DNA of 64,000 nt from Hyphococcus sp. (GTDB taxonomy: Bacteria > Pseudomonadota > Alphaproteobacteria > Caulobacterales > Parvularculaceae): contig JABDJK010000080.1 in assembly GCA_013002535.1 (NCBI GenBank), positions 62,001-126,000 of the forward strand, in the 5' to 3' direction. The translations under genes and the position numbers were made by a program. Below the pieces are notes generated by a model. The model was not told the DNA's origin and did no database searches. It saw only the letters and a program-made list of their open reading frames with translations. Positions 474-2,235 of this stretch are shown here, one piece after another (the first letter of the stretch is position 1; the number at the start of each line of letters is the position of its first letter).

Positions 474-779
474 TTGAACGAAGCCGTGCTGATGGCTCCA
501 AAGGACCATCAGGGAAAGCCAGTTTTTTATACCATTCTCGGTCATGTCTCGCGTTCAGGGATGAGCCAGTGCATTTCCATCCATTATTTCGACACTCAGG
601 CGGGCGAGCTCCGCCAGCTTAACTATCCGAGCGCTGTAATCTTGGGATACAGCTTGGATGCCAAGCATGAAGCGATCCGAATTAACGGAGCCGGAATGGA
701 TATGGGGTTCGTCCTTATCTATGCGCTGGCGGAGAAGCTCTTGGGGGATGGATACGCGATTGAGCAGAAGTGGGTTTAG
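474..779 (+). CDS. Phage-type conserved hypothetical protein
   Basis: A protein of about 100 residues containing ILGHVSRSGMSQCISIHYFD near the N-terminus and INGAGMDMGFVLIYALAEKL near the C-terminus. This SRSGMS ... GxGMDMGF pairing is a recurring signature of a small protein family of unknown function found mainly in phages and mobile elements (recognised from memory, not searched). The start is uncertain: TTG at 474 or ATG at 492 in the same frame, neither with a clear ribosome binding site. It lies just upstream of the mobile mystery gene pair, which supports an accessory origin for this left end. No biochemical role can be assigned from sequence. Confidence 0.6.
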   Translation: MNEAVLMAPKDHQGKPVFYTILGHVSRSGMSQCISIHYFDTQAGELRQLNYPSAVILGYSLDAKHEAIRINGAGMDMGFVLIYALAEKLLGDGYAIEQKWV

Positions 780-865: not shown

Positions 866-980
866 GTCTACATATTTATGGACGAATTTTCTCATAAAGG
901 CCATAAAAATATGGACAAATGCGATAGTTAGTCTATATATAAGTAGACGGATAAGGCTTTGTGTCCATAAATATGTGGTC
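866..980 (+). promoter_or_regulatory. Array of four phased 18-bp palindromic operators before mmpA
   Basis: Four 18-bp imperfect palindromes: 866-883 GTCTACATATTTATGGAC, 899-916 GGCCATAAAAATATGGAC, 931-948 GTCTATATATAAGTAGAC, 963-980 GTCCATAAATATGTGGTC. They share the pattern GTCYAYAWAWWWRTRGAC. Start-to-start spacings are 33, 32 and 32 bp, close to three turns of B-DNA, so all sites face about the same side of the helix. The last ends three bases before the mmpA ATG at 984. The regular phasing and position suggest cooperative binding by the HTH protein MmpA or another regulator (inference). A promoter probably lies within the array, but no clear -35/-10 pair is separable from the AT-rich palindromes. 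Confidence 0.8.
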
Positions 981-983
981 GAT

Positions 984-1454
984 ATGAGTGTAAAAGAGAC
1001 AGTCAGAAGGCAAATTGCCAAGCAAATCGATAACGCTGCCAGCAGTGCAGCGAACACTACTTCCATGCCTTCAGAAGGCTGGATCGCGGCAATGCGCAAG
1101 GCGCTCGGTATGACGGGCGCGCAACTCGGGCGGCGCATGGGGCTATCCCGAAAGCGGATTTCACAAGTTGAAAAAGCCGAGATCGATGGCGGCGTCACCC
1201 TTCGCTCTATGCAAGACCTTGCTAGAGCAATGGACGCCAAATTTGTCTACGCGATCCTTCCGAAAGAAGGCGATGTCCAAAGCATTATTGAGCGCCAGGC
1301 CCGTAAAAAAGCCAAGGCGCTGGTCTCACGCGTCTCAACGCATATGGCGCTGGAAAAACAAGCGCTGGATGAGAAGCAGAACCAAGCTGAAATCAAACGG
1401 CTGGCCGATGAGCTTTTACGCGATCCCCCATCAGATTTTTGGGAGGAGGAATGA
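984..1454 (+). CDS. mmpA: Mobile mystery protein A, XRE-type DNA-binding protein
   Basis: A 156-residue protein. A Cro/C1-type helix-turn-helix spans about residues 32-88 (MRKALGMTGAQLGRRMGLS, RISQVEKAE), followed by FVYAILPKE and a charged helical tail rich in Gln, Glu and Lys. This layout matches the mobile mystery protein A family, which almost always precedes a Fic-domain partner. The frame stays open upstream to 822, but that stretch consists of the palindromic operator array and codes for implausible residues, so ATG 984 is the likelier start even without a good Shine-Dalgarno; the transcript may be nearly leaderless. It overlaps mmpB by 4 bp (ATGA), implying coupled translation. Likely role: repressor of its own operon (inference). 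Confidence 0.85.
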   Translation: MSVKETVRRQIAKQIDNAASSAANTTSMPSEGWIAAMRKALGMTGAQLGRRMGLSRKRISQVEKAEIDGGVTLRSMQDLARAMDAKFVYAILPKEGDVQSIIERQARKKAKALVSRVSTHMALEKQALDEKQNQAEIKRLADELLRDPPSDFWEEE

Positions 1455-2047
1455 GCGGCATTATAGGCGAACCGGATGGCGCAACGCCGCTCGATCCCGA
1501 CGACCTGGAAGGCCTGAAATTCAAGCACATCAAAACGCGCGGCGAGCTTGATGAACTTGAACAGGTCAATATCCAATCAGGCCTTCAATGGCTCTCAAGA
1601 ATCCGTATCAAAGATGTCTTGAGCGAAGAGTTCATCCGCACGCTGCACAAGAGGATGTTTGGGGATGTCTGGAGCTGGGCAGGTACATTTCGCTCAACCG
1701 AAAAGAATATCGGTATCGACCCCATTCAAATCGGGGAGCAACTCAGAATGCTCCTTGATGATGCGCGCTATTGGGCTGAGCATGAACCCTATCCACCGTT
1801 AGAAGCCGCCGCGCGGTTTCATCACCGGATCGTGCAAATCCACTGCTTCCCCAACGGCAATGGTCGGCATGCACGCATCGCGACTGACGCGTATTTGCAA
1901 GAGCGCTTTGCCCATCCGCCGATAGACTGGGCGGGCGGATTTGATCTGATGCAAAGCAATGAGCGCCGGGATGAATACATTGCCGCGCTCAGGGCGGCGG
2001 ATGCTGGCGATTACGAACCGCTTCTAAGCTTCGTTGGCGCGGATTGA
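1451..2047 (+). CDS. mmpB: Mobile mystery protein B, Fic-domain protein
   Basis: A 198-residue Fic/DOC-fold protein. The catalytic loop HCFPNGNGRHAR begins near residue 131: the general-base His, the GNGR phosphate-binding turn and the second Arg are present, with Asn where many family members have Asp/Glu. Fic enzymes usually transfer AMP or another phosphate-containing group to protein hydroxyls. The N-terminal segment ELEQVNI is typical of mobile mystery protein B. No clear [ST]xxxE[GN] inhibitory helix motif is seen here or in MmpA. The start ATG 1451 follows GGGAGGAGGA and overlaps mmpA by 4 bp. The pair resembles a toxin-regulator module, but its real function is not established. Confidence 0.88.
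   Translation: MSGIIGEPDGATPLDPDDLEGLKFKHIKTRGELDELEQVNIQSGLQWLSRIRIKDVLSEEFIRTLHKRMFGDVWSWAGTFRSTEKNIGIDPIQIGEQLRMLLDDARYWAEHEPYPPLEAAARFHHRIVQIHCFPNGNGRHARIATDAYLQERFAHPPIDWAGGFDLMQSNERRDEYIAALRAADAGDYEPLLSFVGAD

Positions 2048-2160: not shown

Positions 2161-2235
<75 letters not shown>

Follow-up and report, generated by a model that had tools for sequence, protein, structure and literature searches.

Judged by its layout, the closest analogue of the array described here is the operator of Escherichia coli hipBA. There, four 18-bp dyads lie before the operon, and an XRE-type HTH gene precedes and overlaps the toxin gene, which encodes the HipA kinase. The sites are at -134, -106, -67 and -39 of hipB (spacings 28, 39 and 28), the final one ends 21 nt ahead of the ATG, and all are perfect copies of the HipB site pattern TATCCN8GGATA. 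The HigBA/GraTA systems also have an XRE-type HTH antitoxin, paired with a toxin that is not a Fic protein; P. aeruginosa HigA is reported to form cooperative dimers on promoter palindromes (PMC6987408). In this design a single 28-bp stretch is embraced by two dimers, one from either side. A third point of comparison is provided by VbhA-VbhT, FicA-FicT and AntF-Fic-1, where the VbhA/FicA-type partner of the Fic protein is a small inhibitory-helix protein. The pair studied here belongs to the families of mobile mystery proteins A and B (TIGR02612 and TIGR02613). In the open-licence literature no paper was found on the regulation or mechanism of this pair. Excerpts of published work interpret a TIGR02612 gene beside a Fic gene as an antitoxin, already in 2013 (PMC3936711), place TIGR02613 under Fic/Doc in the cargo of Tn7-like elements (PMC8649781), list mobile mystery protein b of Mesorhizobium loti (mll2066) among the 50 genes with the highest M-values under heat shock (PMC3989490), and mention mobile mystery genes as mobile or plasmid genes (PMC4725956, PMC4750851).

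How does the present locus compare? The window, i.e. the whole 64-kb stretch of DNA that was analysed, has an mmpA gene (984 to 1454, plus strand) for a 156-residue XRE-type HTH protein, the proposed repressor/antitoxin, which overlaps the Fic gene mmpB (1451 to 2047, plus strand) through ATGA. The naming of this pair as mmpA/mmpB in an earlier note on this DNA was confirmed, for the genes are adjacent and both products pass the curated cut-offs: MmpA scores 163.5 bits against TIGR02612 (cut-off 122.6) and 29.7 bits against HTH_3, and MmpB 262.3 bits against TIGR02613 (cut-off 124.4) and 57.1 bits against Fic. The layout is that of a type II toxin-antitoxin system, a two-gene operon in which a DNA-binding gene adjoins a toxin-like gene. 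Start codons of mmpB at -4 (37/80) or -1 (12/80) recur among the genome-contig loci, near copies counted.

An AlphaFold2 model of the window MmpA, built with 55 sequences, has a mean pLDDT of 91.2. A Foldseek search with it returned nothing at E ≤ 0.001; the weaker matches mainly cover residues 27-96 and leave the C-terminal helices (98-123 and 130-146) outside. HigA3 (Z 8.7) and HigA2 (Z 8.5) are among the top structural matches, and the solved folds closest to the model include HipB structures, with modest scores. MmpB shows the Fic fold, with FicD, VbhT, EcFicT and Fic-1 among its structural matches, and carries the catalytic HxFxxGNGRxxR of Fic proteins as HCFPNGNGRHAR, a motif present in all 41 aligned MmpB rows, which had been selected for it. 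In fold and motif MmpB thus resembles the class I Fic toxins of the VbhA/FicA type, whereas its partner is HTH repressor-like, with no conserved inhibitory motif: [ST]xxxE[GN] occurs in just 21/95 MmpA and 2/41 MmpB sequences, so no conserved neutralising motif is visible. Twelve of the matches in MmpA begin in residues 21-30, at the start of the HTH. Residues 27-32 of the window MmpA were considered as such a motif and rejected as a chance match because the motif is not conserved. A tryptophan within the final eight residues of MmpA is nearly invariant (94/95) and is a candidate contact with MmpB.

Four 18-bp dyads, which carry no strand, stand before mmpA. The outermost putative operator, D-4, lies at 866 to 883 (GTCTACATATTTATGGAC), and is followed by D-3 at 899 to 916 (GGCCATAAAAATATGGAC), D-2 at 931 to 948 (GTCTATATATAAGTAGAC) and D-1 at 963 to 980 (GTCCATAAATATGTGGTC). 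Start-to-start spacings are 33, 32 and 32, and three bases separate the end of D-1 (980) from the mmpA ATG at 984. The positions, the spacings and the three-base gap are as first described; the accompanying statement that all four sites match GTCYAYAWAWWWRTRGAC applies only to 866 and 931, the sites at 899 and 963 each having one mismatch. The half-sites are of the GTCYAYA type and the dyads are imperfect, with 6, 6, 7 and 6 complementary base pairs out of 9 (from D-4 to D-1). The array did not arise by chance. For the 150 bp upstream of mmpA, a motif-blind four-dyad score combining dyad symmetry with mutual likeness at 32 or 33 bp was 68.7, the maximum from 5000 dinucleotide shuffles being 42.0, and when the entire window was scanned in this way position 866 came top with 71.8, ahead of a runner-up at 40.7. 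When up to three mismatches are allowed, 12 strand-matches to GTCYAYAWAWWWRTRGAC occur in the window, where 2.1 ± 1.7 would be expected, and 8 of the 12 are the array. Sites with at most one mismatch are confined to the array in the window's own 3.4-Mb genome, and two mismatches add 15 strand-matches, a reversed control pattern giving 13 in total; no wider regulon of GTCYAYAWAWWWRTRGAC-like sites was seen in this genome. A terminator-like match at 865 to 884 is D-4 itself. Relative to hipBA, then, the locus has several 18-bp dyads before an XRE-HTH/toxin operon and departs in its spacing, in its site sequence, and in having a Fic gene second instead of a HipA kinase gene. The separation of the dyads also distinguishes it from HigA, whose dimers share a single stretch.

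Arrays of this kind are not peculiar to the window. Loci were collected from whole genomes at class level (27/385 over the cut-off, own genome counted), from near relatives (5/60, own genome counted) and from named genome contigs (the best 80 of 201 confirmed), making 111 with the window, and 95 after removal of 16 near copies; weak or partial TIGR02612 matches (L002, L029, L030, L031, L036-L050) were left out. Because the genome-contig scan used a closer alignment than the family-wide one, 80 of the 111 loci are biased toward the window's branch. A motif-free autocorrelation of dyad symmetry in 94 upstream regions (one of the 95 being too short) peaked at 33 bp (z 14.3) and 32 bp (z 7.0); elsewhere in the 19-60 bp range the highest value was z 2.0, at 30. 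The earlier note had proposed looking for regularly spaced dyads before other mmpA genes, whose absence would count against its reading, and they are there: three dyads at 32/33 bp reach p ≤ 0.05 (100 shuffles per locus, hence a floor of 0.0099) in 87 of 95 non-redundant mmpA upstream regions, against 23 of 269 control stretches taken from other parts of the same loci. Among eight spacing pairs, 32/33 scored highest in 88/95 upstream regions and 38/269 controls. Upstream regions of couple_hipB (TIGR03070; n = 30), a different family of XRE antitoxins, gave p ≤ 0.05 at this spacing in 5, and it was best in 4. The eight mmpA regions below significance are L126, L007, L058, L023, L087, L011, L111 and L018; in L087 and L111 dyads are visible by eye.

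A clear-array set of 77 of the 95 loci was defined by p ≤ 0.02 and z ≥ 3.5. Its mean step is 32.7 bp (132 gaps of 33 and 56 of 32), all 188 gaps being 32 or 33 because the extension permitted no others, so that the preference rests on the autocorrelation and the per-locus tests. Dyad sequence varies among MmpA branches as spacing stays constant, which makes the spacing, and not the site, the family feature. The array accompanies mmpA in Alpha- and Gammaproteobacteria, Thermodesulfobacteriota, Nitrospirota, Nitrospinota and one Myxococcota MAG. It is also found in all five plasmid loci examined among 239 matching records (p = 0.003 each), on very different sites, e.g. with ATCAGC- or GTATC-type half-sites. 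It is a sound conclusion from these comparisons that the phased array is a general putative operator of mmpA genes, conserved in geometry and broader than first described. Its placement on one face of the DNA holds only approximately: the step is about 3.1 turns at 10.5 bp, and successive dimers would be rotated by roughly 40 degrees.

We consider it very probable that the array is the mmpAB operator, that MmpA dimers bind the dyads and repress, and that MmpB is likely a Fic toxin held by MmpA. An MmpA (XRE/HipB-like) dimer would sit on each 18-bp dyad through a recognition helix at residues 56-67, with successive dimers about three helical turns apart and probably touching. In the window D-3 would hold a -35-like half-site, D-2 a -10-like core and D-1 the start region. 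Given promoter-like elements and a start region inside the dyads, the filled array is proposed to shut off transcription of mmpA and mmpB, most simply by direct occlusion of both. Most likely the operon encodes a type II toxin-antitoxin pair, with MmpB as its Fic toxin, restrained by MmpA; the array would make the operon respond to the MmpA:MmpB ratio. By analogy, mmpAB is best explained as a hipBA-like toxin-antitoxin design with a geometry of its own. What the sequences themselves establish is the array, its family-wide spacing, co-variation of a helix with the operator, superposed promoter-like signals, and a link between array strength and intact mmpB.

The last of these bears on the nature of MmpB. 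In the class-level set mmpB is over the cut-off in 23 of 385 genomes, and its best match always lies beside an mmpA match (a partial one, below the cut-off, in G244); G274 also has a second, partial mmpB match below the cut-off, which lies on a different contig and is unaccompanied by any listed mmpA match. Five of the 27 mmpA genomes (G093, G114, G226, G281 and G383) have no mmpB match, the sequence of G226 extending just some 280 bases past mmpA. The array is significant in 73 of 75 loci with an intact mmpB (L023 and L087 are the other two) and in 14 of 20 where mmpB is broken, absent or beyond reach, and its scores are lower in the latter (median z 7.3 versus 3.2; Mann-Whitney p 3e-4). This linkage, a correlation only, is in keeping with a toxin unable to persist once its regulator is absent, and with decay of the regulator's array after the toxin has been lost.

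MmpA might repress as proposed and MmpB nevertheless serve regulation or defence, modifying its target with no damage to the cell, in which case there would be no toxin-antitoxin pair. This is possible, and of the alternatives it survives best, yet we think it clearly the less probable interpretation. Its attraction is that MmpB resembles PDC-S04 (E 7.5e-19), a candidate defence family of PADLOC, and that on a Shewanella plasmid (L135, 276 to 6375) mmpAB has the qatCD anti-phage genes on one side and a type I restriction gene on the other. It accounts less well for the fact that mmpB is beside mmpA in 23/23 genomes (again with G244 partial) and mmpA also occurs without an intact mmpB, which is the asymmetry of toxin and antitoxin; and the excerpt of the 2013 report cited above had called the TIGR02612 neighbour of a Fic gene an antitoxin (PMC3936711). 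Among models of defence systems MmpB has, besides the candidate PDC-S04, only a weaker match to SoFic. As to the phage-immunity module that had been mentioned as a parallel, no MmpA relatives were found in phage or viral-contig collections, so a reading of MmpA as a phage-immunity repressor is unsupported. Toxicity of MmpB and its neutralisation by MmpA are what we infer, as are binding, cooperativity and repression by MmpA.

A scan of the window for a strict sigma-70 consensus found no promoter. Promoter signals were analysed in the 59 of 77 arrays that come within 0-4 nt of the ATG, much closer than the 21 nt of hipBA (the remaining 18 stop 5-36 nt ahead). Among these arrays TTGAC forms the right half of D-3 in 39/59, compared with 52/295 other half-sites (p 4e-13), and GTATA forms the left half of D-2 in 27/59, compared with 30/295 (p 1e-9). 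The best sigma-70-like promoter most commonly has its -35 at position 14 of D-3 and its -10 at position 4 (18/59) or 2 (11/59) of D-2, and the others scatter. GG or GAG at positions 10-14 is found in D-1 of 26/59 arrays and in D-2 and D-3 of 4/59 and 2/59. Successive dyads have promoter-like and, less often, ribosome-site-like sequences superposed on them. In the window the right half of D-3 is TGGAC rather than TTGAC, and it overlaps a putative -35-like hexamer, TGGACA (912 to 917, plus strand), at the place where 39/59 have TTGAC. A putative -10-like TATATA (934 to 939, plus strand) follows after 16 bp, at the D-2 place of the commonest best promoter (18/59). D-1 would fall within the 5' leader.

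Does this coincidence of D-3, D-2 and D-1 with promoter-like and start-region signals mean that MmpA binds the dyads as independent, non-touching sites, spaced merely so as to fit -35, -10 and start region? Those signals could by themselves fix the spacing of three sites. The number of dyads argues otherwise: three occur in 48 of the 77 loci, four in 24 and five in 5 (extra dyads being accepted above the 95th percentile of shuffled bases), and in 24 of the 59 near-ATG arrays, the window among them, a fourth dyad lies upstream of D-3 at 32-33 bp, where no promoter element requires one. We regard independent sites as unlikely and prefer the reading in which neighbouring MmpA dimers probably touch.

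Which protein reads the array? In the 77 clear-array loci, operator distance was compared with protein distance over sliding 12-residue stretches, corrected for whole-protein distance. The best co-varying stretch of MmpA is 56-67 (partial r 0.28), and for the stretch 54-65, fixed in advance, the observed value was reached by 1 of 2000 Mantel permutations. Residue 56 is the top single column (partial r 0.43), followed by residues 31 (0.29) and 36 (0.28); among stretches from residue 88 on, i.e. in the C-terminal part, there was no notable positive correlation with the operator in these loci. The AlphaFold2 model, viewed after this analysis, has a helix exactly at 56-67, predicted to be the recognition helix of the HTH (codons at 1149 to 1184 of the window, plus strand). 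Since the stretch that co-varies with the operator is a helix of the model, it is probably MmpA itself that reads the array. Where residue 56 is Arg or Lys, the commonest outer half-site base is G in 69/70 loci, and with other residues it is G in 0/12, figures that do not amount to 82 independent cases because the switch occurred in few lineages; on the tree there are four independent pairs, 3 concordant, 0 discordant and 1 without difference (sign test p 0.25). Pairing of Arg with G, and of Asn or Gln with A, is a textbook protein-DNA contact. By sequence only, the locus thus has what is expected of a type II antitoxin, operators in its own promoter matching its recognition helix.

That the dyads are instead operators of a host regulator, the module having borrowed a host promoter, we regard as improbable. 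The array travels with mmpA across several phyla and on plasmids, and its motif follows the MmpA branch: the half-site of the Myxococcales MAG locus L062, GTCTATATA, is that of the Hyphomonas loci L053 and L054, which belong to the window's clade. Nor does the window's own genome have another low-mismatch site. Control by MmpA, i.e. the autoregulation suggested in the earlier note, is on the other hand strongly supported by comparison, given the array in 87/95 upstream regions, the promoter-like elements and the co-variation of the recognition helix.

The setting of the pair was also inspected, with neighbour genes annotated for the window and five plasmid loci. Between the left-hand gene (3 to 365) and mmpAB the window has an open reading frame (474 to 779, plus strand) that has no family match and no match among 29 other relatives. 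On the other side the module is bordered by the 3' end of a tRNA-Gly(gcc) gene (2161 to 2235, minus strand). In each of the 15 genus relatives examined, this tRNA is followed by the same YbaK-like gene, and mmpAB is absent from the 1.5 kb read on each side; in five of them a homologue of gene 3 to 365 is 123-466 nt before the tRNA, compared with 1795 nt in the window. Given these shorter distances and the lack of a nearby mmpAB, the segment 366 to 2160, with the open reading frame and the pair, looks acquired. No att-like repeat of the tRNA end marking an island edge was found at the window locus. In one of the 15 relatives (G407) an mmpAB of its own (MmpA 51% and MmpB 76% identical) lies in the same orientation 2.4 kb ahead of that tRNA, so the pair may have settled at this spot repeatedly. 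Phased repeats before small HTH genes are also familiar from partition and replication control, and one orphan mmpA adjoins parAB on a Vibrio casei plasmid, but it is very improbable that the array serves to replicate or partition a mobile element, as an iteron or a centromere-like site that affects mmpA only secondarily, because in a chromosomal setting common to relatives the window copy adjoins a tRNA and a conserved YbaK-like gene, the array is stronger where mmpB is intact, and the dyads carry promoter signals.

If the array is indeed an operator filled by MmpA, a more specific switch can be tentatively pictured, although we doubt more than we believe it. MmpA would build a regular nucleoprotein array rising by about 3.1 turns per step, a value kept constant as recognition helix and operator co-evolved; the number of dyads (three to five) and MmpB binding would together set an ultrasensitive or conditionally cooperative switch over the promoter and ribosome-start region, which would release the Fic protein when the ratio falls, e.g. 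on phage attack or plasmid loss. The conserved geometry, the code between helix and operator and the promoter layout make the mobile mystery pair directly testable and show where to cut and respace the DNA. Across the family the number of operators (three, four or five) and the specificity vary at one constant spacing, a natural series in which to study how arrays set switches in toxin-antitoxin-like modules.

Some further observations concern individual loci. In L022, L027, L059, L091, L103, L124 and others mmpB is broken or partial and the adjoining mmpA keeps its array. The mmpA of L124, a record titled Frankia sp. RB7, groups with a Hyphomicrobiales one, pointing to transfer or to a mislabelled or contaminated record. 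The orphan mmpA of the Vibrio casei plasmid (L133, 2902 to 5752) has no annotated mmpB and has a 32/33 array beside the ParB/ParA genes. Finally, seven couple_hipB upstream regions (L141, L150, L152, L159, L160, L161 and L162) gave high three-dyad scores, 42.7 to 50.3 as raw values outside any shuffle comparison, at 25-28 bp, and the HipB-type family may have a fixed spacing of its own in this range.
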